64,000 nt of DNA from positions 1-64,000 of the forward strand of contig NZ_CYSB01000008.1 of assembly GCF_001458255.1 (NCBI RefSeq), read 5' to 3'. Made by a program: the position numbers and the translations under genes. The number at the start of each line of letters is the position of its first letter. Position 1 is the first letter of the stretch. Positions 1,299 through 42,045 of this stretch are shown here, piece by piece. This DNA is from Thalassovita autumnalis (GTDB lineage: Bacteria; Pseudomonadota; Alphaproteobacteria; Rhodobacterales; Rhodobacteraceae). The notes below the pieces were generated by a model. It was given only the letters and a program-made list of their open reading frames with translations. It made no database searches and was not told the origin of the DNA.

Positions 1299-1889
1299 AT
1301 GGGCCGACCGCGCACACCACGGCACAAGCGACTGACGCAGAAACAGCGTTTTGCCATCGTGCGCAAGCGTGCCGAAGGGGTGCCGATCGAGGATCTGGCC
1401 CGCGAATTCGGCGTCACGACCCGCAGCATCTTCTACACGTTGAAGGCCGATCAAAGCCGCAAACTCGACGCGCGCGTGCGCTCCGAACTGGTGAATGTCC
1501 GGCTGACGCCAAAGGAGCTTGCGGGCTTCGATGCGGTGCTGACACGGCATGATATCACCAGCCGGGCGGAGGGGCTGCGGCGGTTGATCCATGCCTCAAA
1601 CGATCTCTTTGTCCCCGACGATGAACTGGCCAATCAGATGCAGGGGCTATCGGCCTCGCTCAATCGCACCGGCAACAACATCAACCAAATTGCGCAGCGC
1701 CTGAACGAGGCAAAGCGCCAGGGTAAGACGCCGCCTTATGGCAATTCTGCCCATGGCCAAGTGCGCGCCTTGGCCGGGCTGATCTTCGACATCGCAGACC
1801 AGGTTCAGGACATGGCGCAGCGCCGACGCAGCGCGCTGTCCGGCGAGGTTGCGCGCGTTCTGAGGGGTTTTGCCGATGGCCCGGAGTAA
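1299..1889 (+). CDS. mobC: MobC-like mobilisation accessory protein
   Basis: This 196-residue protein has two parts. Residues 8-55 look like a helix-turn-helix (TQKQRFAIVRKRAEGVPIED...FGVTTRSIFYTL). The C-terminal half has the MobC signature GNNINQIAQRLN near residues 125-136. MobC-type proteins bind oriT and help the relaxase open the strands at nic. AGGGGTG lies about 10 bases before the ATG. The end overlaps the relaxase start, so the two are co-translated, with virD4 next. The N-terminal HTH is unusual for a short MobC and suggests that it may also regulate its own operon. Confidence 0.8.
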   Translation: MGRPRTPRHKRLTQKQRFAIVRKRAEGVPIEDLAREFGVTTRSIFYTLKADQSRKLDARVRSELVNVRLTPKELAGFDAVLTRHDITSRAEGLRRLIHASNDLFVPDDELANQMQGLSASLNRTGNNINQIAQRLNEAKRQGKTPPYGNSAHGQVRALAGLIFDIADQVQDMAQRRRSALSGEVARVLRGFADGPE

Positions 1890-3684
1890 CGCCGTTGCGG
1901 CCGCACAGGAGGCCTTCTTTGATCGAGACTGGAGCCGCATTCGCGGCAGCGTTCCGCGTGCCCGTGCAAAGCAGATGGCGCGCGCCGCCATGGGGCATTC
2001 CCCCGCGATCTTCAAAGCCATTCGCGACGGCGGAACGCACAACAAAACTCAGCTGCGTAACCAGCTGGAGTATCTAACCACCAAGTCGAGCTTCATCATC
2101 GACAGCCGTGGCACCTATGACGGCCAAAGCGTCTTGTCCGTGAAAGAGATCGAGCAGGTCACGCGCCGGTTTTCCGCACAGTGGAATGAGGGGTTCCATC
2201 CCAAACTGGGGCAGACCTCGCACCTCTTGATGGCCTTCCCAATTGGCACGCGCGGCGAGGATGTTGCCGAGATCACGCGCGAGATCTGTGAGCGGTTCTT
2301 TCAGGGCGAAGGCAGCCACTTTGACTATATCGCCGCCGTGCATGAGGACCGGGATCACCCGCATGCCCATATCGTACTGAACCGGCGCAGCAAGGACGGT
2401 GAATTCTTCTTTTTGAAAGAAGGGCACCACTTCAACTACGACAGTTTTCGCGAGGCGATGGTTGAGGTGTCGGACCGCTATGGGCTGAGGCTCGAGGCGA
2501 CCCGAAAGCTTGAGCGAGGCATCACGACGAAGATGCCAAGCGACGTGGACCAACGTCGTGCAGAAGCTACGGGGCAGAAGCCGACCGAGCGAGAGCGCGT
2601 GGGGGCAGAGCTTGACCGTGCATTGGCTGAAGTCGCCCAGAACGCGCGGCTTTATCGCGGCCTGGCTGCCGAGGCCTCGCGCGAGAACCAGCATGACATC
2701 GCAGCAGCCTTGGACAAGGCTGCGACGCTTTTGGCGCAGGGCAAACCGATTGAAGCAGATGGAAAGGTATATGGCATGGCCGAAGAACAGCATTCCTTTG
2801 ACGAGGTCGTGGATGCCTTTCACGACAAGATCAACCAGGCCGAACGCATTGTGGCGGACGCCCCAGTAGAGCGGCGCGCGGCGTTCGAGCATGAGCTGAA
2901 CGACATCTATCGCTCTTTGTCACATCTCAGCCCAATGGGAGCGCAGTCCCACACCTTGCTCGAAGATGCCTCCAAGAGCGGGATCTATTCGGCCGCGAAC
3001 ATTCAGGCCGACGCCCAAAGTGCATTGCGGGATACAGCTCTTACCGAACGTCTTGAACAGGCTTTGAAAGGCACCGGCATTGACGCGCAGGATGTAGCGC
3101 GTCGGGTCGAAATCGGCGCGGGCAATGCCGCGCTCGAGCGGCAATGGCTTGGACAGGATTTGAAGGCAATTGCCGAGAAGGATGGCTTTGACCTGTCACG
3201 CGCCGATGAGCTTGAGAAAGCGATCGACCGCCTTGACCAGGTGCACAGTGATCTGGGCCGGATGTTGGCCAATGCTGAAGTTCTCAAGGACAGTGGAGCG
3301 GTGGAGGCCGACCGGGAGGAAGCCATAGTCGACGGGTTGCCGCCGACCACCTCTGACATCCTGAGCCGTTTGAGAGATGATCCGACCGCAGATCCATTCC
3401 GAAACGATCTGGAGCGCGAGACTTTGAGGGCCGAACTGGAGGATCTGGCCGGTGAAGAAAATACCCCGGACTTGGCAATTGGCGATGAGACCGCGCTGGA
3501 GGAACATATCGAAGACCGTTTGGACCGGCTCTATGCGGCTAAGGCCTATCTGCAGAGCGATGCCGCTCTGGCGAACAGTGTGGCGATGGAGCATGTCCTA
3601 GACGAGATCGCCAATGAAGAAATTGATGTTCAACGCGAGCGGCATGTCGATGCCGACGGCGAAAAGGGCGTGACGCATGGGTAA
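1876..3684 (+). CDS. Conjugative relaxase (VirD2/MobA type)
   Basis: This 602-residue nickase-helper would cut at oriT and lead the strand into the recipient. The relaxase domain is in about the first 250 residues. The three-His metal motif reads HEDRDHPHAHIVLNR near residues 156-170, and the best candidate catalytic Tyr is in QLEYLTTK near residue 66. The rest is long, acidic and helical (EL/ERA-rich) with no helicase motifs. A TTG at 1870 is possible, but the ATG at 1876 has GAGGGG 8 bases upstream. It overlaps mobC by 14 bases and virD4 by 8. The motif order fits MOBP/MOBQ-like relaxases; the exact class is not settled. Confidence 0.88.
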   Translation: MARSNAVAAAQEAFFDRDWSRIRGSVPRARAKQMARAAMGHSPAIFKAIRDGGTHNKTQLRNQLEYLTTKSSFIIDSRGTYDGQSVLSVKEIEQVTRRFSAQWNEGFHPKLGQTSHLLMAFPIGTRGEDVAEITREICERFFQGEGSHFDYIAAVHEDRDHPHAHIVLNRRSKDGEFFFLKEGHHFNYDSFREAMVEVSDRYGLRLEATRKLERGITTKMPSDVDQRRAEATGQKPTERERVGAELDRALAEVAQNARLYRGLAAEASRENQHDIAAALDKAATLLAQGKPIEADGKVYGMAEEQHSFDEVVDAFHDKINQAERIVADAPVERRAAFEHELNDIYRSLSHLSPMGAQSHTLLEDASKSGIYSAANIQADAQSALRDTALTERLEQALKGTGIDAQDVARRVEIGAGNAALERQWLGQDLKAIAEKDGFDLSRADELEKAIDRLDQVHSDLGRMLANAEVLKDSGAVEADREEAIVDGLPPTTSDILSRLRDDPTADPFRNDLERETLRAELEDLAGEENTPDLAIGDETALEEHIEDRLDRLYAAKAYLQSDAALANSVAMEHVLDEIANEEIDVQRERHVDADGEKGVTHG

Positions 3685-5566
3685 GGCGCGGATCGCACTC
3701 GGCGTCATGAGCTTTGCTCTTCTCGGCGCGGTGCTGGGGTATGTTCTGGCGTCGGCCTTTCTGACATTCCGCTGGTTCGGGGGCGGGGCGGATATCGATT
3801 TCCTGATGTTGGCGCGCAGCTATGGGGTTCTCCGAATGACCCATCCGGCCGATATGCAGATTGTTCACTTGATCGTGGGGATCAGCACTAGTGCCGGTGT
3901 TTTGCTCAGTGCGGTGTTGATGAACGATGCGCTGACCAAATTTGGGGAAACCCACTGGCAGCAGATGTCCGAGATGAAGCGGAACGGCTTTTTCGGAAAG
4001 CCCGGCCACGGCTTTGTCCTCGGCAAAATGGGTAAGCCTAAGAGTCGCAAACCCTTCGTGATGTCCAAGGTATTCCCCCATGCTTTGATCGTGGCCCCGA
4101 CCGGACGCGGCAAGACGACGGGTTTCGTCATCCCAAACCTTCTGACCTATCGGGGCAGCGCGGTTGTGCTGGACGTGAAGGGTGAAAACTTCGAGGCAAC
4201 CGCCCGCCACAGGGCTGCGCAGGGTTACAAGGTGTTCCGGTTCGCGCCAACAGATTGGAAGGATGGCCGCTCGCACCGCTACAATCCTTTGTTGCGCATA
4301 TCGGCGCTCGAAAATGTCGACCGTCAGCAGATGGAGCTGCAACTCCTGGCCTCTTTGTTCCTGCAAGCAGATAACGACCGGGTTCAGGGACTCCTTGATG
4401 GCGGTGTCGATCTATTCGTGGCGGCGGGGCTTTTGGCGTTCGAGCGCAAGCGGCCGACCTTGGGCGAGATCTATCGCATCACCGCATCTGGCGGGGACAA
4501 GCAGAAGGAATATCGCCGCCGCGCCGACGAAGTGGTCAATCCCGCTGCCAAGCTAATCTTCATGCGCATGGCCTCGACCAACAACGACACGCTCACCTCT
4601 TATCTGTCGCTCTTGATGACGTCCGGCCTGAAGCAGTGGTCAAACCCCGCCATCGACCGTGCGACCGCAACGTCAGACTTCGATTTCCGCGACATCCGAA
4701 AGTCGCCGTTTTCGGTTTATCTTGTGGTCGAACCGCTGATGGTAAAACCGCTCGCGCCGTTGATCCGCTTGTTCTTCTCGGATTTACTGGCATCGCTTCA
4801 GGATCATGAACCCGGCAAGGACGAACCCTGGCCGGTGATGATCATGCTCGATGAGTTCAACCGCCTGGGCAAAATGCCGATCGTTCTGGACAGCATTGAA
4901 ACCCTGCGATCGTACCGAGCCAATCTTGCGATCGTCACACAGACAATCCCGGCACTTGACGAGATCTATGGTGAAAACGCCCGCCGCGCCTTGCAGGGTA
5001 ACGCGGGCATCAAGCTCTATCTGACGCCCTCGGATGAGAAGACCATCGAAGAGCTTAGCAAAGCCGTCGGCAAAACCACCAAGCGCGTTGTGACCCGCTC
5101 GCGCTCGGTCGGTCGCAACCCCTTCGCCGGTCGCAGTATGTCTGAACGGACCGAAGAGACCGCGCTGCTACCTGAGGATGAGGCGCGGCGCATGGATCTT
5201 GATGACATCGTTCTGGTGGTCGACGCGCAAATGCCCGTGCGAGCCAAACGGATCAAATACTATGAAGACCGGTTCTTTAAGCAGATCTTCGACAAGCAGA
5301 CAGGCGATCTGCCATTTCCCTCAGCGGGTGACCAGATGCGCGGCCTACAAGGGCAGATCAAGGCGCTGGAGGCTAAGATTGGCGCGCTTGAGATGCCTAA
5401 GGTGGTTGCTGCTGAGGTATCAAAAGTTGGTGGGGAACGGCGCGAAGAGATCGAAAAACTGGCGTCTTACGGGCAGGGCGTGCAGTCCAGCGATGAACCT
5501 AGTCTGGATGATTATCGGTCTGGAACAGAAAGGGTGGATCGTTTTTTGGAAGATGCGTTCCGGTAG
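3677..5566 (+). CDS. virD4: Type IV coupling protein VirD4/TraG
   Basis: This 629-residue inner-membrane ATPase would hand the relaxase-DNA complex to the secretion channel. Two hydrophobic segments occur in the first 85 residues (starting MGKARIALGVMSFALLGAVL), followed by Walker A APTGRGKTTG near residues 139-148 and Walker B MIMLDEFNRLGK near 388-399. The C-terminal tail (after about residue 560) is charged. It starts inside the relaxase gene, so mobC, relaxase and virD4 form one operon. It is separated from the virB genes by the nuclease cargo, unlike many elements where the two are adjacent. Confidence 0.93.
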   Translation: MGKARIALGVMSFALLGAVLGYVLASAFLTFRWFGGGADIDFLMLARSYGVLRMTHPADMQIVHLIVGISTSAGVLLSAVLMNDALTKFGETHWQQMSEMKRNGFFGKPGHGFVLGKMGKPKSRKPFVMSKVFPHALIVAPTGRGKTTGFVIPNLLTYRGSAVVLDVKGENFEATARHRAAQGYKVFRFAPTDWKDGRSHRYNPLLRISALENVDRQQMELQLLASLFLQADNDRVQGLLDGGVDLFVAAGLLAFERKRPTLGEIYRITASGGDKQKEYRRRADEVVNPAAKLIFMRMASTNNDTLTSYLSLLMTSGLKQWSNPAIDRATATSDFDFRDIRKSPFSVYLVVEPLMVKPLAPLIRLFFSDLLASLQDHEPGKDEPWPVMIMLDEFNRLGKMPIVLDSIETLRSYRANLAIVTQTIPALDEIYGENARRALQGNAGIKLYLTPSDEKTIEELSKAVGKTTKRVVTRSRSVGRNPFAGRSMSERTEETALLPEDEARRMDLDDIVLVVDAQMPVRAKRIKYYEDRFFKQIFDKQTGDLPFPSAGDQMRGLQGQIKALEAKIGALEMPKVVAAEVSKVGGERREEIEKLASYGQGVQSSDEPSLDDYRSGTERVDRFLEDAFR

Positions 5567-5750
5567 TTTGACAGGGAGGTTTTTTGCACAGAAACTCTCA
5601 GGCTCGATGTACAGTCAGTTTGGTGAGCTATGGCGTCTTAAGTCATCGAAGACACTCTCTCGGGGTTGCGGTTGATGGATGGGGGTACAATTTTGGCGCG
5701 AGTTTTCGGTTGCCAGTTCACTGGCCTCTGACACATAGTGAGAGGTGGCA

Positions 5751-8030
5751 ATGAACTTCATTGTAAAATTTGAGTATTTGGAAATTTACATGATCCAACA
5801 CTTCTTAAAGATTGAAAATCTTGGCGTTTTTTCAAACTACAAAAAGCCTGCGGGGATGGAACCCTTTAAGCGATTTAACTTGATCTACGGGCTCAACGGC
5901 TCGGGAAAGACGACACTGTCCCGTTTTTTTGCAGACTTGAACACGGGACAAGCGGAAGGTTTCCCCAACCTCAAGTACAAGATCAAGACCGAAGATGGAG
6001 ATTTTCAACAGGGAGCCCCCTATTCGCGCAAGATAAGAGTATTCAATGCGGAGTATGTGGATGCCAACATTGGCAAACTCGAAGGCACGCTGAATCCAAT
6101 ATATGTCATAGGTGAAGAAAATAAGGCGCTTGCTGAGACTGTGAAGTCTGACGAAGCTCAGCTTGCCTTGCTGAAACAGCAGCTTGAGGAAAAGTCGTCT
6201 GAAAGAGATAAGTTGGTAAAAAAGAAGGGGAAGCTCTTCACCGATGTGGCCCCAAAAATTACCGAAGCCTCCAAAGGGGCCGTCACTAGGACTTATAACA
6301 AACGAAACGCCGAAAAAGCCTATGGTGAAATGTCCAGTGCCAAGCAGCTTTCCATCGATGAGTTGGCCGTCACGTCTGCGGAAATGAAACAGACTGCTCT
6401 AGACCGTTTGGATGAATTTCCAACTGTTAAAATGGAAACTCATAAAGGTGAGCAAACTCTCTTTGAGGCGCTAAAACTGCTGAGAGACGTAATCTTAAAC
6501 CTCGGGCGAAAAAGTGCAACATCTGCTGCAATAGAGCGCATAAAAACCAATCCCGAATTGGCGGATTGGGTCGAGCGTGGGAGAGATCTTCACGATAGGA
6601 AAGATGACCAGATTTGCGAGTACTGCCTGCAAAAAATCCCCGAGGACCGTGAAGCGGAGTTAGCTGCACACTTCAACGAATCTGATAGTAAACTAAAGTT
6701 AGAGATCGAGAGTGCGATTTCCTCAGTTCGTACAGCCAGAGACAAAATTGAACGTATTAAAGGCTTGAGTGAAAAAAATCTTTACCCTGAACTTCAGGAA
6801 GAATTCTCAAAGAATTCAAAGGTCCTTTCCGAAGAACAAGCCCAGATACTGTCAAACCTGAAAGAAATGGATGAAGCGCTTAAGGACAAGCTCACTAGGC
6901 GTACAGAGAGCTATGAGGTGATGATTTCCGCACTCAGCAGTTCAACCTGGGATGCGGCAGTAGAAGCACTCAACACACTTATCAGACGCCACAATGCAGA
7001 AACTGATGATTACCAGAATCGGCTCGACAGTAATTTTTCGAAGATCGAAACACATTTCTTGTCGGCGATCCAACAAGATGTTCAAGATGTTTCAGATGAA
7101 ATCAGTGTCTTGGATGGCGAGATTAAGGCGTGCATTGACGGTGATGCGAAGCACAGCACTCTGGGTACTAAAGATCTAGAGACACGCATTAAAGACAACC
7201 GAGCTAGAATATCTAACTCCCATCAAGCTGCCGCTGACTTGTCTCAGAAACTGGCCTCTTTTTTGGGCCGTGATGATCTAAGATTTGAACCTGAAGGAGA
7301 GGGTTATCGAGTAATGCGTTTTGGCCGAGCGGCAAAGAGGCTAAGTGAAGGCGAGAAAACAGCCATCACCTTCCTGTATTTCGTTGTCGGCTTGAATGAC
7401 CAAGATTTTGACCTTGAAGATGGGATTGTTGTGATCGACGATCCGATCTCCAGCCTAGACTCCAGTTCAGTTTATCAGGCCTTTTCCTATTTGAAGAGTG
7501 CAGTGAAAGATGCGCGGCAAGTCTTTCTTTTGACACACAATTTTGAGTTCCTAAAGCTTCTTCTAGGATGGTTTACCTATGGAAATCAGAAAGATAAGTC
7601 GTATTGGATGCTGCACTGCACCAATACCAGTCCTGGTGCCAGAGAGACCGACCTTAAGCCGTTGGATAAAGTTCTCATAGAAAACCGAAACGAATATATA
7701 TATCTGTTTAGAACTCTTGCGGAATTTGTTTCAGATGGGACGATTGCTCAGTCTTATCCAATCCCAAACATAGCAAGAAAAGTGCTCGAGACCTTTCTAG
7801 ACCAGCATTCTACCGGAAAATCTTTTTTCAAGAAGCTGGAGAATCTTGACTATGATGAGCAGATCAAGTCATCTTTGTATAAGTATACCAATGACTTATC
7901 ACACCCGACGATGTCGGGCCTTGACCCAGCATTGGTTGGAGAAACTCAGACAAATATTAAGCACCTCTTAGAGATGATCCAAACCGTTGCACCAGTGCAC
8001 TACAAGGCTCTTACGGGTGCGGAAAGTTGA
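5751..8030 (+). CDS. RloC/PrrC-like anticodon nuclease, AAA_13 ATPase
   Basis: This 759-residue protein starts at the ATG at 5751 (GAGG 5 bases upstream; the ATG at 5790 is possible). It shows an AAA_13 layout: Walker A GLNGSGKTT (47-55), a long coiled coil broken by a CxxC zinc-hook-like CEYC (289-292), the ABC signature RLSEGEK (near 530), Walker B VVIDDPISSLD (near 561) and an H-loop LLTHNFEF. The C-terminal domain has R676-x3-E680 and H718, the order of the Arg-Glu-His triad of PrrC and RloC, which cut tRNA anticodons in response to phage or DNA damage. Its sequence is visibly richer in A+T than virD4. The nuclease assignment is by pattern; other AAA_13 proteins share parts of it. Confidence 0.72.
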   Translation: MNFIVKFEYLEIYMIQHFLKIENLGVFSNYKKPAGMEPFKRFNLIYGLNGSGKTTLSRFFADLNTGQAEGFPNLKYKIKTEDGDFQQGAPYSRKIRVFNAEYVDANIGKLEGTLNPIYVIGEENKALAETVKSDEAQLALLKQQLEEKSSERDKLVKKKGKLFTDVAPKITEASKGAVTRTYNKRNAEKAYGEMSSAKQLSIDELAVTSAEMKQTALDRLDEFPTVKMETHKGEQTLFEALKLLRDVILNLGRKSATSAAIERIKTNPELADWVERGRDLHDRKDDQICEYCLQKIPEDREAELAAHFNESDSKLKLEIESAISSVRTARDKIERIKGLSEKNLYPELQEEFSKNSKVLSEEQAQILSNLKEMDEALKDKLTRRTESYEVMISALSSSTWDAAVEALNTLIRRHNAETDDYQNRLDSNFSKIETHFLSAIQQDVQDVSDEISVLDGEIKACIDGDAKHSTLGTKDLETRIKDNRARISNSHQAAADLSQKLASFLGRDDLRFEPEGEGYRVMRFGRAAKRLSEGEKTAITFLYFVVGLNDQDFDLEDGIVVIDDPISSLDSSSVYQAFSYLKSAVKDARQVFLLTHNFEFLKLLLGWFTYGNQKDKSYWMLHCTNTSPGARETDLKPLDKVLIENRNEYIYLFRTLAEFVSDGTIAQSYPIPNIARKVLETFLDQHSTGKSFFKKLENLDYDEQIKSSLYKYTNDLSHPTMSGLDPALVGETQTNIKHLLEMIQTVAPVHYKALTGAES

Positions 8031-8058
8031 TTTGGATCGATCTCGAAAAGTTGGATGG

Positions 8059-8128
8059 TCTTACCCCTATTTGCGAGGGAGGCACTACGATTTCAGGCCA
8101 ACTGCGAAACTGTTGCATCGGGGTAAGA
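8059..8128. repeat. 9-bp inverted repeat in the gap before the Mre11-like gene
   Basis: TCTTACCCC (8059-8067) and GGGGTAAGA (8120-8128) flank 52 bases in the 132-bp gap between the RloC-like gene and the Mre11-like gene. It could be an operator pair or the base of an mRNA fold. No clear -10/-35 pair was found, so its role is open. Confidence 0.35.
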
Positions 8129-8162
8129 GCCGCACCATTCGCGGAATACGGACAGAACAATT

Positions 8163-9341
8163 ATGCGCCTACTAGTTTCAGCTGACACTCACCTCGGATC
8201 ACCCATAAGATCTGTAGCACTGCGCAATCCCGACCTCGGAGATCGCTTGAAGCAGGCCAGCCGTGATGCCTTTGTCGAGATCGTTGATCTGGCGGTATCG
8301 GAACAGGTCGATGCGTTTGTGCTTGCGGGTGACATTTTTGACAATGGTTACCCGGATCTTAAGTCCCGTGCTTTCCTGATAACTCAGCTGGCGCGCGCCG
8401 CAGAAGCTGGGGTGCCTACGGTACTGATCCGGGGCAACCACGACGCGCTTTTGGATCACAATGCTCATGGAGACTTGGGGCCAAACATCCATCTTTTGCA
8501 CAAAGACGCTCCTACCGTCGAAATCGGTAATGCTGCGTTCCATGGCCTGTCTTTCGATACGGCGCATGTGGCAAAGAGCTTCCTACCGGACTACCCAGTT
8601 CCAGTTCCGGGAAAACGAAATATTGGTCTTATGCACACCTCGCTAGATGGTGCCCCAGGTCATGATCCCTATGCGCCTTGCGCTGAACAGGACCTGATGG
8701 GGCACGGTTTCGATCTTTGGTGTCTCGGGCACATTCACGCACCGTTTGAGCGAGTTGATGGATCGGTTCTGGCGGTTATGCCTGGTATCCCGCAACCGCG
8801 TCATTTTGGCGAGCGTCACGGGGGAACTGTGACCTTGGTTTCGATGGGGGATGGGGTCCCGGAATTTGAACGCCGAACGGTTGGGCGACTTGGCTTTTCT
8901 GAATGCTCTCTAGACCTAAGCGCATGTTCTGACCAACAAGAGGTACTTAGAAAATTGCGCGACGGCTTGATGACCGCGCAATCGCTAGGGCGCGATATAG
9001 CTGTGCGACTTAGCACTACTTCGGATCGATACGGTACTGAGCTTGTTACAGAACTGGCGTCAGAAGTCCTAGACAGTATTAATGGCGTATTCCTCGACAA
9101 GGTTAAATCGGCACCGCCGGTCAGCCAATCCAGTGCCGAGACTGATGATTTGGTTCGCTTGATGCAGGAGGAATTGACCGAAGATGGTTTTCGACAGGCC
9201 GCTCTCCAACAGCTCGAAGAACTGCGTCTAGCTATGCCGTCAGAAATCACAGACGAGTTTGCTGAGGACAGATTGGACGCACTTCTCGAAGAAGCGATTG
9301 CGGAAGTCTCTCTAAATCTGCATGCGGATATTTCCCAATGA
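8163..9341 (+). CDS. Mre11/SbcD-like (YhaO-type) DNA nuclease
   Basis: This 392-residue metallophosphoesterase has all the metal-binding motifs of SbcD/Mre11 nucleases: SADTHLGS (residues 6-13), AGDIFDNG (about 55-62), RGNHDA (about 95-101), GLMHTS (about 157) and GHIHAP (about 190). A helical, acidic tail follows. It should be a Mn-dependent exo/endonuclease working with the ATPase encoded next, whose ATG overlaps its TGA (ATGA, 9338-9341). The length fits the YhaO-type relatives. The ribosome-binding site is weak, so the start is less certain. The position on a mobile element beside an RloC-like gene suggests a defence or DNA-processing role rather than housekeeping repair. Confidence 0.85.
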   Translation: MRLLVSADTHLGSPIRSVALRNPDLGDRLKQASRDAFVEIVDLAVSEQVDAFVLAGDIFDNGYPDLKSRAFLITQLARAAEAGVPTVLIRGNHDALLDHNAHGDLGPNIHLLHKDAPTVEIGNAAFHGLSFDTAHVAKSFLPDYPVPVPGKRNIGLMHTSLDGAPGHDPYAPCAEQDLMGHGFDLWCLGHIHAPFERVDGSVLAVMPGIPQPRHFGERHGGTVTLVSMGDGVPEFERRTVGRLGFSECSLDLSACSDQQEVLRKLRDGLMTAQSLGRDIAVRLSTTSDRYGTELVTELASEVLDSINGVFLDKVKSAPPVSQSSAETDDLVRLMQEELTEDGFRQAALQQLEELRLAMPSEITDEFAEDRLDALLEEAIAEVSLNLHADISQ

Positions 9342-12300
9342 GATTGAACCGGTTGGATCTTATCCGTTATGGGCGCTTTAAAGATGCCGATATTTGTTTT
9401 CCAAAACCGGCCGATGGGAAGCCTGATGTAACGGTGGTTTTCGGACAGAACGAGGCAGGCAAGTCTACCGCTTTCAATGGTTTTCTGGAATTGCTTTTCG
9501 GTTTCAAAGGCGGGGCCCATCCCTACGCTTTCCGGTTCGATCGAAGTGATCTTGTGGTGGGTGCTGAACTTGATCTGCCTGAACGTGGAACCACCGTATT
9601 GCGTCGCAACAGCAAGAGAACCCAATCACTGCTGGACTCGAACGAACGCCCTATCAACGAGGCGATTTTGTCTGGAGCTCTGCACGGCCTGACTCGAGAC
9701 ACCTATGAGGAACGGTTTTCACTCAATGAGAAAGGTCTGCGAGAGGGCGGCGAGCGAATTGCCGGAGCGCAGGGTGACCTTGGCCAACTCCTGCATGCAG
9801 GTCTCTCCGGTCTGACAGGGATGGCTCAAACTCTGGATTCCTTGGCCGAGCGAGCAGACAAATTCTACAAGAAACGTGGTCGGGGTACGGTATTGAAGAC
9901 CGGCAGTGATCGCGTCAAAGAGATTGGTCGCGAATTGCGTGCTGATCACTTGACGACTGAGCGAGAGTGCAAACTTCGCCAAGATCGTGACCGGACAGTA
10001 GCCGATTTCGAAACTGCCGATGCTGAGCTTCGACAAGTTTATCAACGACAAGCAGCGTCGAAGGCTGCGGAGTTATGGTATGTTCGGACCGAGAAGATGG
10101 GGCAACTGACTGAAGCCTTGGCCGATTTTCCCGGCGGTCCCGACCTTGCCCCCGATGCGGCAGAGCGTGTCGCTGGCCTGGTCGAGAAAATCGCGGCTCA
10201 GTCGATCCGAGTCACTGAAGCGGAAGAAGAAATCGTCAAACTAGATCAGATCATCGATGACCACCCAATCGACAACTTGGCTCAGCCTTTGAAGGCAGAG
10301 TTGGAACGGCTTGATCAACTAACTTTTGATGGTGCACCGCTTTTGGGGCGCGCGAGCACCGCGAAGGCTGACCTCGACCGTCGCCGCGAAGACTTGGACA
10401 ACCTCGGAGAGCAAATAGACAAAGTATTGGTTCTCCTCGAGGTGCCGGATGCGCCGCCGTCCACAATCACCTTAGAGGCAAATGATTTGGAAGACATCGC
10501 CACCGCAGTGCAGGAGTGCTTGACGGCCAGTCTTTCAGCCAGTGCTGCAAAGGAGGCCGCTGAAGTCGCTCTCGTCCAACATGGCAAAGCGCCCTGTGAG
10601 CCGCAAGATTTGACGGCTCTGAGACTCGCCTTCGAAAAATGGAAAACCGTAGCGGATGTGTCCGCTTTCGAAGTTGCTCATGGCCAAACTTTGGCGCGCC
10701 TGACCAAGGTCGCAGCTGGTCTGCCGCAGTCTTGGATGGACCTTGTTGCAGCAGGCTTACCTGCGCGAGAAACGCTCGAAGAAGTCAGTCAGGATTGGGC
10801 AACCCTAACTGCCGATCTTGCGTCGGCCCGGAAAGACCTCGAGGCCCGTGTAGCCGAGTTGGTGGAGGCGCGGGCAGATCTAACGACGCAAGAGGCCGCA
10901 CCTGACGCCGTTGACATCGTCAAGACCGAAGAGACGCGGCGTCAGCGTGATATCGAATGGCAGCAGCATCGGGGCGATCTGACAAGTGAGACGGCTGACC
11001 AGTTCGAGGAGGCGATGTACGCTGATGACAGCGCCCGAGCTCATTACCTTACGGGGGCTGAGGCTCGGCAGCGGCTGTTGGCCGCACAGGGGAAGGTGCG
11101 GAGCGCTGAAGCCCGGCATGAAACTGCAAAGAACCGTCAAGACGACTTGATTGCGAGACATGACCGCTTGTCAGAAAGCTGTTCAAGATTGGCGCTGGCA
11201 CTGGGGTTTGAAGCAGGCACGCCCCCTTCGGCCTTCAACGCTCGCCAACAAGCTCTGACGACGGCGGCCGAAGCCGCGGCCGATGTTTCCAATGCTGAAA
11301 GAGCGTTGAAAGACCGTCTTTTGCAACAAGCGGAGGCTTACGATGCATTGACTGGAGCGGCGCGTCCCCTTGGGTATGATCCCGCGCAAGGTGATCTGCC
11401 CACTCAAATTCAGAGAGCGCTCACGTTGGAAAAAAGCGATCGCGAGGCTTGGGCCAAATGGCAGGATGGCAAGAAGACCATTGCTGAGTTGGAAAAAAAG
11501 GCTGAGCAAGCGAGCGACGATCTCGACTTCGCTTTGAATAAGCTTGAACAGTTAACTGTTGCGTTGCCGTTGCCGGATTGTTCGCTTGATGGTATTCGAG
11601 CCGCTTTGCCGCACCTTCGGAGCCTGCAGCAGCTTTATGGAGAGCATAGAAAGCTCTCAATGCGGATTGGGGCCTTGGAGCAAGCGATCGCTGCGCTGGC
11701 AGATAGCGCAGAGCGCTTGATCCGAATTCTGGGGGATCCTGAAAACGATGCAGATCCTGTCCAGATCATCGACCGCGCTCGCTCGCGTCAAGCTTTGGCC
11801 GTGCGGGCAGACGAAAAACGGGAAGAGGCGGTTCTGCGACGGGATGAACTTGACCGTTTCAAACGTAGCGAAGAGACGGAGCTTCAGGACGCGAACGCCC
11901 ACCTAGAATCTTGTTTCGAAGGGCAAGGACGTCAGGACTTGATGCCTCGCGATCGTGTTGCAAAGTTGGTTGAACGTGATCGTCTTCGAGCGGAAAAGGC
12001 AATTGCGGCACGTGAACGCCAAAAAGCCCGAGAAGGAGTCGATGCCGATCTTTTCGCCGAGGAACTAGATCGGATGCCTGACGCCACGCGCCCGACAGAG
12101 CTGGAACAGGCGCAGCAAGACGCACAGCTCACCCGGGACGCCGCCCGCGATGCTCAGCGAGAAGCTGACCGTCTATATCGCGAAGCTTTTCAAGCCGCCG
12201 ACCGCAGCGACCTCGCGACCGAACAAGCGACACTGCTGGAAGAGCTACGGAGCGGCGCGCGTCAGGCGGCTGTGGCTAGACTCGGAGTGCTGGCGGCACG

Positions 12301-12739
12301 AGGGGCGCTGCGTCGCCTTGCGGCAGAGCGGCGCGGCAGCATGCTGCGCGACGTCGAAGAGGCTTTCGTCACCATGACCTCCCCGGCCTGGACCGGTGTT
12401 GATGTCTGGACACAGTCCGAAGGCGAAAAGCTCGTCGGTATTCAGCCAGATGGAAACACGGTTCCTGTGGAGCAGATGTCGACGGGCACAATGGGTCAGC
12501 TGTACTTTGCGTTGCGTCTTGCTGGATATCGCAGCTTTGCGCGTGACCCTGGCCCACTGCCGATGGTCCTGGACGATATCATGGAGACATTTGACGATGT
12601 GCGGGCACGAGCGGCCTTGCAACTCTGTGCCGAGATCGGCGCGAACGGACAAGCAATCCTCTTCACACACCACGCGCATCTGGTCGAGTTGGCAAGAGAC
12701 TGTATCGATGGGGTGGCGATCGTAAACATGCCAGACTGA
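9338..12739 (+). CDS. Rad50/SbcC-like (YhaN-type) SMC ATPase
   Basis: This 1133-residue partner of the Mre11-like nuclease has Walker A GQNEAGKST (36-44), about 900 residues of Glu/Arg/Ala/Leu-rich coiled coil, then the ABC signature MSTGTMGQL (near 1046) and Walker B LPMVLDDIMETF (near 1076), with an H-loop FTHH. The N-terminal MRLNRLDLIRYGRFKD is typical of YhaN-like ATPases (COG4717). I see no CxxC hook in the coiled coil, unlike E. coli SbcC and Rad50. The pair is translationally coupled. It ends 86 bases from the convergent virB6 gene. Confidence 0.82.
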   Translation: MRLNRLDLIRYGRFKDADICFPKPADGKPDVTVVFGQNEAGKSTAFNGFLELLFGFKGGAHPYAFRFDRSDLVVGAELDLPERGTTVLRRNSKRTQSLLDSNERPINEAILSGALHGLTRDTYEERFSLNEKGLREGGERIAGAQGDLGQLLHAGLSGLTGMAQTLDSLAERADKFYKKRGRGTVLKTGSDRVKEIGRELRADHLTTERECKLRQDRDRTVADFETADAELRQVYQRQAASKAAELWYVRTEKMGQLTEALADFPGGPDLAPDAAERVAGLVEKIAAQSIRVTEAEEEIVKLDQIIDDHPIDNLAQPLKAELERLDQLTFDGAPLLGRASTAKADLDRRREDLDNLGEQIDKVLVLLEVPDAPPSTITLEANDLEDIATAVQECLTASLSASAAKEAAEVALVQHGKAPCEPQDLTALRLAFEKWKTVADVSAFEVAHGQTLARLTKVAAGLPQSWMDLVAAGLPARETLEEVSQDWATLTADLASARKDLEARVAELVEARADLTTQEAAPDAVDIVKTEETRRQRDIEWQQHRGDLTSETADQFEEAMYADDSARAHYLTGAEARQRLLAAQGKVRSAEARHETAKNRQDDLIARHDRLSESCSRLALALGFEAGTPPSAFNARQQALTTAAEAAADVSNAERALKDRLLQQAEAYDALTGAARPLGYDPAQGDLPTQIQRALTLEKSDREAWAKWQDGKKTIAELEKKAEQASDDLDFALNKLEQLTVALPLPDCSLDGIRAALPHLRSLQQLYGEHRKLSMRIGALEQAIAALADSAERLIRILGDPENDADPVQIIDRARSRQALAVRADEKREEAVLRRDELDRFKRSEETELQDANAHLESCFEGQGRQDLMPRDRVAKLVERDRLRAEKAIAARERQKAREGVDADLFAEELDRMPDATRPTELEQAQQDAQLTRDAARDAQREADRLYREAFQAADRSDLATEQATLLEELRSGARQAAVARLGVLAARGALRRLAAERRGSMLRDVEEAFVTMTSPAWTGVDVWTQSEGEKLVGIQPDGNTVPVEQMSTGTMGQLYFALRLAGYRSFARDPGPLPMVLDDIMETFDDVRARAALQLCAEIGANGQAILFTHHAHLVELARDCIDGVAIVNMPD

Positions 12740-12825
12740 ACTTTAGTCTGAACTAATGACGAGACTGCCGCGCAAAACCCTGGAATCTGGCTGTAGCGTT
12801 CTAAGGCCAACTTGCCCCATGACCA

Positions 12826-13824
12826 TTATTCCAACCGCTTCGCCCGTTCAGCAACTCTCTGAACCATCGAAACGGTCGCGCCACCTGCCTGCCGTATCCC
12901 AGCCCCCGCGATCTCAGCATTCGATCTGGTCCCAAACCTTGCCCGCGCCCGTGACCCCTTGGTTCCAATCAACCCTTTTGCGAAGCCGCCAGGACCCGGA
13001 ATGCTTGGCGGTCCGGCCATCATGAAATTGCCTGAGATGGAGCGCACGATCAGCGGGGTGGCGATGATCATGCCGCCTGCGAGGAACATCATCATAAAGA
13101 AGGGCACAAGTGCACCGATGTTGCTCGCGCCAGAGGGATCTCCGAGTTCGGTCATCAGCGAGCGCGACATCCCGACGACGGTGGAAAACACGCCTGCGAT
13201 CACGAGGGGGTAGAGCGCGTAGGATACTGTGCTGGACAGCCAGCGGTGGAAATAGTCCTTGCTGACATCAAAAAGCGAAAGCGCGATCATGATGGGGGCG
13301 ATGCCGATCATGAAGGCCAGCATGATCTTGGCGAAGATCAGGACCAGGCCGCAGAGCGCGCCGATGACGCCTAGTAGGAATGCGCCGATCGCTCCGATCA
13401 GGGCTCCGGCCATCCAATGCATGTTGTCTCCGGCGGCATTCAGGTAGTCGCCAAATTCCTCGATGAGATCGTCGAAGGCCTCGGCAAAGTAGGTTGCACC
13501 CGCGCCGCCTCCGCCAAGGCCTGCCACCATGCCGCCCGCGAGCTGGTCGAGCCCGTTGATAAGGGCGCTGGCTACCGCGTTGAATTGGACCCAGTTCATT
13601 GCGAATAAAGAGATCAGCATGAGCTTGAGGGCGAACCAAAAGGCGGTTCGCCCATCCATCGATTTGTACTGAAACACCATGTTGAGGAAGACGCCGATCA
13701 CGGCGAGCGTGGAGGCGACCGCAATGACGCCGCCAAGCTGTCCGGCGACGTTGCCAAAGGTGGTTTGGGCTGCGTCTTCCAGAAAATTGTCGGTGGTCTC
13801 TACCATCCAGGTGACGACGCCCAT
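12826..13824 (-). CDS. virB6: Type IV secretion protein VirB6
   Basis: This 332-residue polytopic inner-membrane protein has at least six hydrophobic segments, including VIAVASTLAVIGVFLNMVF and GALIGAIGAFLLGVIGALCG. It has the VirB6/TrbL pattern of a central block of helices followed by a polar C-tail. VirB6 forms part of the inner-membrane platform. GAGGAAG lies 6 bases before the ATG. It is the last gene of the minus-strand virB operon, after the DUF4177-like gene. Confidence 0.88.
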   Translation of the reverse strand: MGVVTWMVETTDNFLEDAAQTTFGNVAGQLGGVIAVASTLAVIGVFLNMVFQYKSMDGRTAFWFALKLMLISLFAMNWVQFNAVASALINGLDQLAGGMVAGLGGGGAGATYFAEAFDDLIEEFGDYLNAAGDNMHWMAGALIGAIGAFLLGVIGALCGLVLIFAKIMLAFMIGIAPIMIALSLFDVSKDYFHRWLSSTVSYALYPLVIAGVFSTVVGMSRSLMTELGDPSGASNIGALVPFFMMMFLAGGMIIATPLIVRSISGNFMMAGPPSIPGPGGFAKGLIGTKGSRARARFGTRSNAEIAGAGIRQAGGATVSMVQRVAERAKRLE

Positions 13825-22376: not shown

Positions 22377-22667
22377 TTATGCGCCCCAGATGGCGGTCAC
22401 GATGGTCGGCGCAGCTGCGATGCCTGCGATAGCGACCAGCACCCAAAGAGCCTGGCGGAAATCCAGAATGCCAAAGAGCCAGGAGAGGAACACGCCAATC
22501 AGGGCCAGGGTGCCGATCACAATGCCCAAGGGGCCGGTGATCGTGTCGACAATGCCTTGAAGAAGGTTCTGCACCGGGGAGAGATCGATGCTCTGTGCAA
22601 GGGCCGGGTTGGCAATCATCAAACTGGCCAGAGCCAGCGACAGGATCGTGCGGAGTTGTGTGTGCAT
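22377..22667 (-). CDS. virB2: Major pilin VirB2
   Basis: This 96-residue pilin precursor has a signal peptide ending ANPALAQS, then two hydrophobic helices (GPLGIVIGTLALIGVFLSWL and ALWVLVAIAGIAAAPTIVTA) joined by a short polar turn, the standard VirB2 form. Its ATG overlaps the virB1 stop (TGATG). Confidence 0.9.
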   Translation of the reverse strand: MHTQLRTILSLALASLMIANPALAQSIDLSPVQNLLQGIVDTITGPLGIVIGTLALIGVFLSWLFGILDFRQALWVLVAIAGIAAAPTIVTAIWGA

Positions 22668-23380
22668 CAGGAGGCTCCAGTCAGTCGGTCACGCACGGCC
22701 ATGACCCGGCGCACGTGATTTTGGGTTTCTCGGTAGGGAGGGATGCCGCCATAGCGCGTGACCGCGTCTGGTCCCGCGTTATAGGCAGCGAGCGCGAGTT
22801 CGGGCGTGCCGAACTGCGCCAGCATCATCAGAAGGTAGCGGGCTGAGCCGTCGAGGTTGGCCTGCCAGTCATGCGGATCCACGCCGAGCTGCGCGGCCGT
22901 CGCGGGCATCAGCTGTCCAAGGCCAATCGCGCCTGCGGAACTGCGCGCATTTGGGCGATAGGCGCTTTCGATCTCGATATTGGCTTGGAACAGCGCCTGC
23001 CATTCGGAAACGGAGAGGCCAGCACGGCGCAGCGCGGGGTGCCCGCCATAACGATGCGCCGTGCTTTCAATGGCTGACAGGACTTCGGGGCGGGGAAAGG
23101 CGCGGGCGGGTGCAGGAGGCGGAGCTTCAGGCTCAGGCGCTGCAAAAACGATCAGCTCTGGCGGGTTTTCACCAATCCCGTCGACATAGCTTTGCGCAAA
23201 ACCTGATTGGGGGGATTTGGTCTCCAGCTGGCCATCGGCTCGCATGGAAAGCACGAAGCCTTCGGAATAGGCCGGGGCAGCTAGGAATGCTGCGAAGACG
23301 GCAAGTGGCTTAGCCCGCGTCGTCCAACTTGTGAGAGGCGATCTTGCCTTCGAACATGGGGATCGAGACGATCGAAACAC
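22667..23380 (-). CDS. virB1: VirB1-like lytic transglycosylase
   Basis: The SLT fold occupies the C-terminal half: [20 protein letters not shown] with the catalytic Glu, then [14 protein letters not shown] and [18 protein letters not shown] hydrophobic [14 protein letters not shown] near the N-terminus is the signal peptide. No ATG precedes it. GTG at 23380 is the nearest upstream start, giving 237 residues and a 71-base overlap with the previous gene. The frame stays open to 23611, so the start is uncertain. Confidence 0.82.
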
Positions 23381-23636
23381 CAAGCCCGGCGAGGAAGCTG
23401 GATAAGCCGTTGATTGTCTTAAACTCTCGGGCCGCCATGTTGTTACGCGCGGTGACGAGCAGGCGACGCGTCTCGCCATCTGGCGAGACGCAATGCACGG
23501 TCCAAACTCCGGACCACTGAGCACCTGTACGTTTGGGCGTAACCCGGCACACAACATCCGCCGAATGACCCTCGGCAAGTAGTGTGCGCAGCCCGTCTTC
23601 ACTGACAACATTAGGGGCGTCTTGCATCAAATTCAT
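23310..23636 (-). CDS. Hypothetical first gene of the virB operon
   Basis: This 108-residue protein starts [20 protein letters not shown], with no signal peptide or membrane helix. Its mixed alpha/beta sequence contains [25 protein letters not shown]. It is the promoter-proximal gene of the secretion operon, so it may regulate it. An ATG at 23663 is also possible. The family is not recognised. Confidence 0.65.
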
Positions 23637-25676: not shown

Positions 25677-26228
25677 TCAGATAAAACGACGGGTTGACGC
25701 CATATACTCTTCAAAATCAGACCCGTATTGCTTCTTGAGCCACGGTTCTTCCGCGAATGGCGCAGCTACCAAAACCAAGATCGAAGCCGTTCCAATAATG
25801 AGCGTTGATGGTGCTGCAGAAAGTATCATCCATCCACCAACAATCGCGATATCGGCCAAGTACTGAGGATTGCGAGAGTAACGATACATGCCAGCGGTCC
25901 TCAGCGTACCTTTCGCGCCGCCCGTTTGCGGAACCCCGAAATGAGCGACTTCAGACCAGACGACAACATTGCCGAACACAATGAGCGGTATCCCGACCCC
26001 GAAACGCAGCCAGGTGGGAAACGCCAGATCACCCCAGCCCAAGATGCCAAGCATGATCAGAATGCCAAACAACGAAAACGTTGGCACCCAGACCAGAATT
26101 GGTGTGATCGACGTGTAGCGCTTGGGCGGCCAGATACGACGCTCGGGGAAAGCGATTGACCAAAGGATCGAAGCAAGTGTCAGCGCAGCAATTCCCAGAC
26201 CTAAGTAAATCAAGATGACTTCTATCAT
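25677..26228 (-). CDS. ICMT/PEMT-like membrane methyltransferase
   Basis: This 183-residue integral membrane protein has about five helices. The C-terminal half holds the isoprenylcysteine carboxyl methyltransferase-like signature TAGMYRYSRNPQYLAD, followed by a membrane segment and EEPWLKKQYGSDFEEYMAST. In bacteria such proteins often lie beside cation diffusion facilitators. The substrate is unknown. Its ATG overlaps the CDF stop (TAATG), making it last in a three-gene operon. Confidence 0.82.
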   Translation of the reverse strand: MIEVILIYLGLGIAALTLASILWSIAFPERRIWPPKRYTSITPILVWVPTFSLFGILIMLGILGWGDLAFPTWLRFGVGIPLIVFGNVVVWSEVAHFGVPQTGGAKGTLRTAGMYRYSRNPQYLADIAIVGGWMILSAAPSTLIIGTASILVLVAAPFAEEPWLKKQYGSDFEEYMASTRRFI

Positions 26229-27145
26229 TATCTGGTCTCCTCATGCCCATAGAGCTGCGCTCCATCGTGTGCATTCCCCAGATCCTCCAATTCGAGAGTG
26301 GAGTGCCGGATGCCGAACTCTTCGGCGAGGCGCGCTTTCACTGCCGCTTTGATCCCTTCGCCGAATGCGCCATCAGCGGTCACGACATGGCAATCTAGCG
26401 CCGCCTCATTCTCTTGCATCTGCCACAGATGAACATGGTGGACATCATGCACACCATCGACGTCGCTGATTGCAGCAACAACGGCATCATTGTCGATGTT
26501 GGGTGGGCTTCCGAGCATCAGGATACGAATAGGGCCACCGATTTCGGTAACTGCAAGGTAGAGGATGTAGAGCGCGATGCCGATCGTGATCGCCGGATCG
26601 ACCCACCACATGTTATAGAGCAGGATGAGCGAGCCGCCGATAATTACGGCAACAGAAGCCAGTGCGTCAGACAGGTTATGCAGGAAGAGCGCCCGAATGT
26701 TGACGCTGCCCTTTTGCATCGAATAGGTCAGCAGCGCTGTCAACGTGTCCACGACCAGCGCCACCGAACCAAGGATCACTACTGTCCAACCGGCCACTTC
26801 GGTCGGTTCGATCAAACGCATTCCGCCTTCGTAGATGAGATAGAAGCCAACGAGGATGAGGGTGGTGTAGTTGATCAAGGCAGCCACAACTTCGATCCGG
26901 CCATAGCCGAATGTCATGCGCTCGTCCGCAGGGCGTCTTGCGATTTTCCGAGCTGCAAAAGCGATCACCAAGGATGCCATGTCCGAGAAATTGTGGAGCG
27001 CATCTGCAATAAGCGCGAGGCTGCCCGACAAGATCCCGCCGACGATCTGCGCGACCGTCAGAAGCGCGTTGGCCCAGATCGCGATAGAGACACGGCGGTC
27101 GCCAGAAGCGGGATCAATATGCGCGTGACCGTGATCATGAGGCAT
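26228..27145 (-). CDS. Cation diffusion facilitator (Zn/Cd efflux)
   Basis: This 305-residue CDF antiporter has a His-rich N-tail (MPHDHGHAHID). Six membrane segments carry the metal site ALIADALHNFSDMAS (D48, H51-D55 region) and HNLSDALASV, and the C-terminal cytoplasmic domain has GVHDVHHVHLWQM. It exports Zn2+, Cd2+ or Co2+ from the cytoplasm. It overlaps the upstream transglutaminase gene by 11 bases. The specificity cannot be fixed from sequence alone. Confidence 0.92.
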   Translation of the reverse strand: MPHDHGHAHIDPASGDRRVSIAIWANALLTVAQIVGGILSGSLALIADALHNFSDMASLVIAFAARKIARRPADERMTFGYGRIEVVAALINYTTLILVGFYLIYEGGMRLIEPTEVAGWTVVILGSVALVVDTLTALLTYSMQKGSVNIRALFLHNLSDALASVAVIIGGSLILLYNMWWVDPAITIGIALYILYLAVTEIGGPIRILMLGSPPNIDNDAVVAAISDVDGVHDVHHVHLWQMQENEAALDCHVVTADGAFGEGIKAAVKARLAEEFGIRHSTLELEDLGNAHDGAQLYGHEETR

Positions 27146-27905: not shown

Positions 27906-27934
27906 TTTTATCTCCTCGAATCGCCTTTGAGATA

Positions 27935-27965: not shown

Positions 27966-28006
27966 GTGTTCTCTTCGTTTTAGTAGCTTGAGAGCCGTGG
28001 AAACGG

Positions 28007-28435: not shown

Positions 28436-28448
28436 GTGACCTCCATAT

Positions 28449-29198: not shown

Positions 29199-29200
29199 AT

Positions 29201-40728: not shown

Positions 40729-40982
40729 GCCCAAGCCATATTCAGCTGATTCCGACCCCAGAGCTTGCGCTTCTCTTCGGCTACAGTGAGCCGAGCGCGT
40801 CCTTCTATGACTTCTGCCGTAGGACGGGTATCGCTCCGGTGCCCGGTCGGCGCGGGTGGTATGATCCGAAACTCATCCGCGCGCGATTGGATGCTGTTCA
40901 GGGTATCAGCGCGGCAGAACGCGAGGCCGCTTCGCAACCGAGCCTCGTTGCACAGCGGAGAGCGCGTCGTGCCCAGAAGTAA
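40725..40982 (+). CDS. Excisionase-like DNA-binding protein
   Basis: This 85-residue protein has LIPTPELALLFGYSEPSASFYDFCRRTGIAPVPGRRGWYDPKLIRARLD, a winged-helix MerR/Xis-like helix-turn-helix pattern, and a basic tail (RRARRAQK). It lies directly before the integrase gene and overlaps its start by 14 bases, which is the usual place for an excision factor. The role is inferred from fold pattern and position. Confidence 0.65.
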   Translation: MSPSHIQLIPTPELALLFGYSEPSASFYDFCRRTGIAPVPGRRGWYDPKLIRARLDAVQGISAAEREAASQPSLVAQRRARRAQK

Positions 40983-42045
40983 CTTCCCCAAGGGCGTCCA
41001 CCGTGTCCGGCGCAAGGTCGTGTCCGGTGTTCGCTACCATTTCTATGCTTGGCGGGGTGGCCCCAAATTTTGGGAAGGGACGGACCCAAACCCAAAGGAA
41101 CCCGAATTCTTCCATGCGTTTTCGCAGTGCGGTTCGCCCGTGAGCCCGGACGAATACCTGACGACTCACTTAGTCGACGATTTTCTGTCCAGTGCGTCCC
41201 TGCCTAAAGCTGAGCGTTCAAAGGCGGATATCCGCAAGTGGCTGGAGCTGTTTCGCGAGGAGTTCGGTGCCGATCCTGTCGCGATGTTCGAAGAGCGCGC
41301 CTCGCGGGGCGAGGTTAACAATTGGCGCAAGAAGTGGCTTCATTCCCCCAAGCAGCACGACATGGCGGGTACCCATGCGACACGCGTTCTGAATTGGGCG
41401 GTGGAGGAGGGGAAGCTGAAAGAGCACCACTGTCACAAGCTCAAGAAGCTCTACCAATCGAACCGGACTGAGATCATTTGGACGAGTGGCGACATAGCGC
41501 AGTTCAATAAGCACGCGCCGAAATGGGTGCAGAGGATCCTTACCGCAGGATGCGAAACCGGTTTGCGGGCAGCTGATCTGGTTCAGGTCAAAATGGACCA
41601 ATTCGAAGACACGCCGCACGGCAAGCGCCTTCGTTTCAGGACCAGTAAGCGCGGCCAGATCGCATATATCCCGGCCACTTCAGCCCTTGAGAAACTGATC
41701 GCAGAGACGCCGGAGGGCCAAGATGTGCTGCTGGTGTCAGAGCTTGGCAGGCCTTTGACGGCCCGTTGGGCATCGAACCAGATCACCAAGTGGCGGCGCG
41801 AAGCGGAGATCCCACCGTGGATCGATGGGCGCGAGAAGACTTTGTCCGATACGCGCGGGACAGCGGCGACAAGATTGCTGAATGCCGATCTGTCTTTGCG
41901 CCAAATCGCAGTTCTGATGGGGTGGTCGGTTCGCTACGCGGCGCAGGTAATCGAGCATTATGCGCAGGTTAGCCCGGACGAAAGCGATGCGGTTCTGCGC
42001 AAGCTCAATCGAGCGAAATCACTGTCTCAAGACACAAAAATGTAA
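40969..42045 (+). CDS. int: Tyrosine integrase of the element
   Basis: This 358-residue recombinase has an N-terminal arm and SAM-like part with WRGGPKFWEG and a catalytic domain with R200 (CETGLRAADLV), R296 (SDTRGTAATR), W319 (MGWS) and the nucleophile Y331 (IEHYAQV). The His of the H-x-x-R box is Ser293. GTG at 40969 has GGAGAG 6 bases upstream; the frame extends to 40765 but through another gene. The tRNA-Cys 3' end is 62 bases downstream, so the gene sits at the attachment site, as expected. Confidence 0.92.
   Translation: MPRSNFPKGVHRVRRKVVSGVRYHFYAWRGGPKFWEGTDPNPKEPEFFHAFSQCGSPVSPDEYLTTHLVDDFLSSASLPKAERSKADIRKWLELFREEFGADPVAMFEERASRGEVNNWRKKWLHSPKQHDMAGTHATRVLNWAVEEGKLKEHHCHKLKKLYQSNRTEIIWTSGDIAQFNKHAPKWVQRILTAGCETGLRAADLVQVKMDQFEDTPHGKRLRFRTSKRGQIAYIPATSALEKLIAETPEGQDVLLVSELGRPLTARWASNQITKWRREAEIPPWIDGREKTLSDTRGTAATRLLNADLSLRQIAVLMGWSVRYAAQVIEHYAQVSPDESDAVLRKLNRAKSLSQDTKM

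Follow-up and report, generated by a model that had tools for sequence, protein, structure and literature searches.

A predicted RloC anticodon nuclease and an Mre11/Rad50-like gene pair in a putative defence slot of a VirB/D4-type conjugative element

We analysed a 64,000-nucleotide stretch of Thalassovita autumnalis DNA (contig NZ_CYSB01000008.1, positions 1 to 64,000; hereafter the window), which carries a conjugative element. Between the virD4 and virB6 genes of this element lie three intact cargo genes, all on the + strand (window 5790-12739): an RloC-type gene, followed by an Mre11/Rad50-like pair whose two reading frames overlap by ATGA. A preliminary description had reported the three genes with their order, strand and overlap, their RloC-like and Mre11/Rad50-like identities, and their placement between virD4 and the virB genes. 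All of this is borne out by matches to the AAA_13, Metallophos and AAA_27 profiles, by the hook, triad and phosphoesterase residues described below, and by the positions of the flanking genes:

3677..5566, + strand: gene for the VirD4 coupling protein, bounding the slot on the left (T4SS-DNA_transf 2.1e-86)
5790..8030, + strand: gene 1, RloC-type AAA_13 ATPase with anticodon-nuclease triad (PDC-S06), 746 residues, assigned by profile matches and motifs
8103..8162, + strand: leader of ~60 nucleotides conserved with the pair, putative promoter or ribosome-binding-site region
8163..9341, + strand: gene 2, Mre11/SbcD/YhaO-like phosphoesterase, 392 residues (Metallophos 1.5e-14)
9338..12739, + strand: gene 3, YhaN/Rad50-like ATP-binding cassette (ABC) ATPase of the AAA_27 type without CXXC, 1133 residues (AAA_27 5.9e-53)
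12826..13824, - strand: virB6, right border of the slot (TrbL/VirB6 2.5e-33)

virD4 and virB6 are convergent, and the slot is the interval between them. Judged by eye in 27 loci and the window, backbone similarity stops at about the stop codons of these two genes. We assign window 5567-12825 as the slot for defence cargo in a conjugative element that is of the VirB/D4 type and has an integrase. The trio is not one block of uniform composition, because the GC content per 1 kb is ~45% over gene 1 and 52-60% over genes 2 and 3. Ratios of non-synonymous to synonymous divergence (dN/dS, NG86) among relatives lie between 0.13 and 0.23 (five comparisons for each gene of the pair, one for RloC-A and two for RloC-B, the two RloC types defined below), which indicates that all three genes are under purifying selection.

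Gene 1 matches the AAA_13 profile (E 1.7e-131) and, over its full length, PDC-S06, a phage-defence candidate in PADLOC (E 2.1e-253). We take the S in this label to stand for a single-gene system, and the name as a whole to mark a candidate. The ATG at 5790 is most likely the start codon, because the copy in the related element of genome G138 (98% identical) has a TAG directly 5' of that ATG; the same TAG disfavours a start at 5745 or 5751. Passages of PMC11514479, one of four papers found to name PDC-S06, simply list it. RloC was described in 2008, and the relevant sections of that paper give as its hallmarks ABC motifs shared with PrrC, a CX2C hook and an Arg-X3-Glu-X36-52-His triad, often with Ser before the His (PMC2610378). 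Gene 1 has the ABC motifs GLNGSGKT (Walker A), LSEGE and IVVIDDP, whose key residues are invariant in alignment A1 (n=11), and a CEYC hook (C276-C279), both cysteines of which are invariant in 28 aligned sequences. The triad is R663-X3-E667-X37-H705, with S704 as the serine; the alignment of 28 shows no variation at R663 and E667 and conservation of at least 90% at S704 and H705. By these features gene 1 is an RloC and a predicted tRNA anticodon nuclease. It resembles RloC of Geobacillus kaustophilus and Acinetobacter baylyi in its AAA_13 ABC motifs, CX2C hook and R-X3-E-X37-SH triad, but differs in adjoining an Mre11/Rad50-like pair in a slot of a conjugative element. A second type found in other elements, RloC-B, is 23% identical to the RloC-A of the window and likewise has every hallmark given in PMC2610378.

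Other assignments for proteins of this kind were rejected. PDC-S06 proteins of types C (L084) and D (L111, L113, L121) do not keep the triad in the alignment and are not counted as RloC. PrrC with a type I restriction-modification (R-M) partner was discarded, since phmmer searches with a single sequence each of HsdR and HsdM gave no match to linked type I R-M genes in window 1-22000. No second RloC-like copy was found in the same genome.

Mre11/Rad50-like enzymes bind and cut DNA ends. In gene 2, residues D8, H10, D57, D60, N92, H93, H158, H190 and H192 are invariant among 14 aligned sequences that include two canonical SbcD proteins; we take these nine to be of metal-binding or catalytic type, with roles as in Mre11. 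By its residues, gene 2 is a calcineurin-type phosphoesterase of the Mre11/SbcD kind, and it matches the NCBIfam sbcd model at 1.6e-15 (57.6 bits, under the curated cut-off of 77.65). The N-terminal AAA_27 domain of gene 3 scores 180 bits against a gathering score of 22, and the motifs that we take to be Walker A, signature, Walker B and H-loop are kept in 12 aligned sequences. The pair shares with YhaO/YhaN and SbcCD/Mre11-Rad50 the combination of a phosphoesterase with a Rad50-like ABC ATPase, encoded by overlapping genes of one operon and with catalytic residues kept, and is predicted to have nuclease activity. It differs in that its phosphoesterase has no SbcD_C match at E 0.001 and that its AAA_27-type ATPase has no CXXC (zinc hook) anywhere in 1133 residues, which groups gene 3 with YhaN and not with SbcC/Rad50. 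No second YhaN-like copy was found in the same genome. Both pair proteins give only partial, weak matches in PADLOC-DB 2.0.0, which holds no full-length system model for either. Phage origin of the pair was rejected, the signs of it being one weak phage match over 8% of the protein and one viral-collection contig (L312) with both genes; the pair on that contig (L312 6727-11549) is a complete YhaO-YhaN-like pair.

The slot itself is variable. We examined thirteen regions that contain a relative of virD4, and ten of them, all with virD4 identity of at least 87%, carry the whole arrangement. Nine of these relatives share most of the backbone genes at 90-98% identity and the tenth (L089) at 71-87%, and the virD4-virB6 interval differs in each of the ten. 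A VirB6 scan of a species-genome collection gave 45 loci, all in Rhodobacteraceae or in genera that we take to be Rhodobacterales; the VirB6 match is partial in L133, L136 and L137, and some loci share a strain or contig (L123/L134, L113/L136). A slot was counted as complete where virD4 was also reached (34 of the 45), and a PADLOC match as strong at E <= 1e-50, with counts based on scanned proteins and some open reading frames (ORFs) left out. Strong matches occur in 23 of the 34 complete slots, 13 with named systems or parts of them and ten with PDC candidates alone. Thirteen of the 23 were scanned under their own identifier, five through the same contig under another (L098=L087, L104=L085, L106=L088, L107=L081, L130=L084) and five by homology (L108 and L122 to L095; L121 and L137 to L111; L119 to the window).

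The named systems, counted as component matches irrespective of completeness, comprise Hachiman (L093, L105), Gabija (L096, L118), CBASS (L098), Lamassu (L106), IetAS (L107) and SIR2-HerA (L114), and, with one component matched each, Tiamat TmtA (L102), Druantia DruE (L104), Pycsar PycC (L110), PD-Lambda-2_B (L115) and reverse transcriptase RT_VI (L134). The slots with candidates only hold PDC-S68 (L097), PDC-S06 with PDC-S73 (L111, L121, L137), PDC-S06 (L113), PDC-S06 with canonical SbcCD (L130), or PDC-S06 with the pair (L095, L108, L122, L119). Matches are weak in L094, L100 and L129 and absent among the scanned proteins of seven complete slots (L103, L109, L117, L120, L123, L133, L135); L136 lay outside the scan. 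Among three elements outside the 45 loci, one has SIR2-HerA (L080) and two have ATPases without clear assignment (L082, L083). From this pattern we identify the virD4-virB6 site as a swappable defence slot, a hotspot of this self-transmissible element of marine bacteria. The preliminary description mentions neither this nor the named systems in other copies.

Defence hotspots in integrative and conjugative elements (ICEs) and genomic islands, such as the Pseudomonas islands treated in parts of PMC12629846, are already known and likewise exchange defence systems at one constant position of the backbone. The present case differs in the element family, a VirB/D4 family of Rhodobacterales, and in the position between convergent virD4 and virB6. 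Among the open-access papers listed, we found none that describes this slot or presents the pair as a module for defence. The slot is a source of further defence candidates, with seven of 34 complete slots lacking a PADLOC match among their scanned proteins. Occupants with weak or no PADLOC matches (L103 11072-12739, L082 4722-8048, L083 4420-6882, L089 12647-15335, L109, L117, L120) include a 555-residue protein, an AAA_16 protein with tetratricopeptide repeats (1108 residues) and an SMC-like protein (820 residues); their position makes them candidates for new defence systems. A very similar 161-residue ORF lies beside virB6 in the otherwise different Hachiman and Lamassu slots (L093 11108-11593, L105 11058-11543, L106 11068-11553) and is perhaps a remnant or a regulator of cargo exchange.

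The window pair, searched by tblastn, occurs in five of the 34 complete slots and in the window. Pairs of the window, G138, L095 and L118 are 95-96% identical in DNA, and their neighbours are RloC-A in the window and in G138, RloC-B in L095 and Gabija on the opposite strand in L118. The tree places the window and L095 pairs as sisters (support 1.0), and neither the A-partnered nor the B-partnered pairs form a clade. Since the window has RloC-A where its nearest pair has RloC-B, one RloC substitutes for another. Where the arrangement is of type B (L095, L108, L122), RloC-B instead overlaps the start of sbcD, and between L095 and L108 the synonymous divergence (dS) is alike for RloC-B (0.47), sbcD (0.52) and yhaN (0.40). 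On plasmids, pairs of the same clade are preceded by Gabija (L153, L155) or by the toxin-antitoxin genes HipA (L150, L151) or AbiE (L154), and on the Rhodobacterales plasmids L148, L149 and L152 by consecutive Shango-type SngC-like and DUF4297-HerA genes immediately upstream; PADLOC was used for L148 and L153, and annotation or similarity for the rest.

In six of the ten contexts aligned, the last 60 nucleotides before sbcD are 62-90% identical between pairs against 30-60% in the preceding 60, with a small drop in some comparisons (G123 with L118 or SMR1). Because these ~60 nucleotides are conserved across contexts, the pair seems to carry its own leader and to behave as an exchangeable unit. 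Among loci of the near clade, that is, the window clade at 52% identity or more, phmmer found a defence match at ten and RloC alone at four, together 14 of 17, and nothing at L055, L058 and L060; these counts include L150 and L151, whose GajB-like matches score 73 and 182 bits, and three 100% duplicate pairs (L059/L153, L148/L152, L150/L151). The 20 distant relatives have defence matches at two loci, both very large helicase-like ORFs, so that the window clade, unlike more distant YhaO/YhaN- and SbcCD-type pairs, lies mostly beside defence genes, in a comparison that is partly circular because the queries were partly drawn from near loci. We consider the pair a good candidate for a defence module that has no full-length PADLOC-DB 2.0.0 model.

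We propose, with moderate confidence, that the slot carries two loosely coupled defence units centred on DNA ends, RloC and the pair, in a defence hotspot. Passages of PMC3874168 report that RloC is switched on by DNA breaks and, in the discussion, that linear DNA activates it and is required for its sustained activity; as given there, this 2013 study left open the benefit of RloC to the host and its activation by phage infection. In our scheme the Rad50-like head of RloC would recognise double-strand DNA ends, and RloC with ends bound would cut tRNA anticodon loops, so that translation would stop. The pair would bind and cut foreign DNA, invading or replicating, at its ends or hairpins; ends existing or made in this attack would keep RloC switched on, and cells in which the first layer, the pair, fails would stop growing. 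In the simplest link, the ends of foreign DNA would be both the target of the pair and the signal that RloC senses. A recurring RloC neighbour predicted to handle DNA ends is a direct, testable candidate for the RloC trigger. Both the defence role of the pair and its coupling to RloC are predicted, and the pair might feed RloC, quench it or do neither.

The combination recurs outside the slot. On plasmids of Sphingobium EP60837 (L177) and Caulobacter NIBR2454 (L180), an AAA_13/RloC gene adjoins a pair of the YhaON or SbcCD kind, and on one of Phaeobacter inhibens P24 (L176) R-M genes separate RloC from the pair by ~5 kb. Four further AAA_13-pair loci (L183, L184, L185, L221) lie in genomes G495, G331 (with weak SbcD/C matches of 37 and 32 bits), G599 and G198. 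Within the element family, L084 (the slot of G071) combines a triad-less AAA_13 protein with canonical SbcCD. A class sample of 385 genomes, in which seven non-seed genomes hold both families, contained three non-seed co-locations against 0.057 expected. By this measure the recurrence of RloC/AAA_13 with a pair, in diverged parts, exceeds a simple chance estimate, but the association is not obligate. A second recurring cassette, canonical SbcC and SbcD with a divergent WYL regulator near an AAA_13 gene, is present in one ICE and two plasmids (L084 4578-13112, L176 15536-20208, L180 828-9244, the last with an annotated WGR protein).

Several observations weigh against coupling. Two of the three class co-locations (G331, G599) rest on weak AAA_27 matches, and strong matches alone leave one against 0.014 expected. 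An order scan of 292 genomes, with at most two or three candidates scored per genome, found a YhaN-like protein in 47 and an RloC-like protein in 19; the pair was usually without RloC, and the two families came together only in G000 and G138, in the same kind of element. We compiled 49 AAA_13 loci: 29 non-seed class genomes gave 30, once two weak secondary matches had been removed, and 19 of the 33 order genomes that passed the cut-off gave the rest. In favour of coupling, an SbcD/C-type pair is present at four of them and so ranks behind type I R-M (eight) and ahead of GajB-, HerA- and TmtA-like proteins (one each) among the partners sought, in a rough comparison that used sensitive hidden Markov models for SbcD/C and single sequences for the other systems. 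Against coupling, the pair is missing from 41 of 45 confirmed AAA_13 loci (flanks of ~8 kb, shorter at some contig ends), from all 80 viral-contig AAA_13 loci listed (flanks up to 6 kb, near-duplicates included) and from four of seven plasmid RloC loci chosen among the top matches. Adjacency alone is weak, because defence genes cluster generally, and we found no nuclease, tRNA or phage data on these proteins. The co-occurrence of the families that the preliminary description proposed to check is mixed, above chance in the class sample and lacking at most AAA_13 loci. Its suggestion of a combined defence module survives in part: a defence role is supported by association and a similar trio recurs elsewhere, but a fixed three-gene system is rejected, since pairs at 95-96% identity stand beside differing partners. 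Its remark that no described system has exactly this set agrees with PADLOC-DB 2.0.0 and with the open-access papers searched.

It is also possible, if doubtful, that RloC and the pair are two independent defence systems that work separately and were joined because the slot collects defence genes. Their joint occurrence in just two of the 292 genomes fits this, as do the pair's own leader in the window, its occurrence beside Gabija, Shango-type/DUF4297-HerA, HipA or AbiE genes, and the tree, where pairs do not group by RloC type. The lower GC of RloC-A points the same way. It also weighs against coupling that the spread of RloC-A is younger than that of the pair (dS between window and G138 0.07 vs 0.13-0.19). 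Independence is harder to reconcile with the RloC-B/sbcD overlap in three elements with matched divergence, the replacement of an RloC by another RloC, and the recurrence of RloC with a pair outside this element.

We also consider, as a rather unlikely reading, a new modular anti-phage system in which an Mre11-Rad50-like core would make or hold DNA ends for an exchangeable end-reading effector. RloC-A and RloC-B would then be interchangeable despite 23% identity, Gabija would be able to replace them, and DNA ends would act as a second messenger to a translation-stopping effector.

The pair could, in a reading that we regard as improbable, be a switch-off or safety device that trims or clears ends and so terminates the RloC signal, making the trio a toxin with a conditional antidote. 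The activity of RloC only while linear DNA is present (PMC3874168, in the portion cited above) and the gene overlap of the type B arrangement are consistent with this, but the great majority of AAA_13 loci manage without a pair, and most pairs are without RloC.

SbcCD-type enzymes process hairpins and ends, and 232 plasmid records have a YhaN-like match (PLSDB types: 70 conjugative, 25 mobilizable, 137 non-mobilizable), so that the pair might serve the element itself in processing transfer DNA, hairpins or replication ends; this is very improbable, with the pair in just five of the 34 slots that are complete in this element family and, among 12 other regions with pair relatives (L055-L066), matches to window transfer genes only in L059 (relaxase, HTH).

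Loose coupling of RloC and the pair remains the reading that we prefer, and the rest of the element is described here for completeness. Beyond the slot, the window contains:

1299-1889: helix-turn-helix (HTH) protein of the transfer region, in the left part of the window
1870..3684, + strand: VirD2-like relaxase of the element (Relaxase 3.9e-14)
after virB6, - strand: VirB11, in the transfer region
beyond VirB11: putative virB10, 9, 8 and 4, labelled from gene order alone
22667-23611: transglycosylase near the VirB genes
40765..42045, + strand: tyrosine integrase adjoining tRNA-Cys (Phage_integrase 1.7e-11)
42108-42181: tRNA-Cys, beside the end of the integrase gene

The relative in G138 has the same gene order, including the integrase/tRNA-Cys arrangement. 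In a search for attL, no repeat of at least 14 nucleotides from the integrase/tRNA-Cys region was found elsewhere in the window. Between the VirB genes and the integrase (25677-38655) lies further cargo: a cation-efflux protein, a transglutaminase-like protein, SCO1/SenC, an M23 peptidase, a P-type ATPase and an L,D-transpeptidase. Those of these proteins that served as queries gave no match in the smaller G138 element. Directly downstream of a tRNA-Cys gene, L060 (10194-15064) carries a pair that belongs to the window clade, with a YhaN 52% identical; the locus has no match to the transfer genes of the window and is possibly the remnant of an element.

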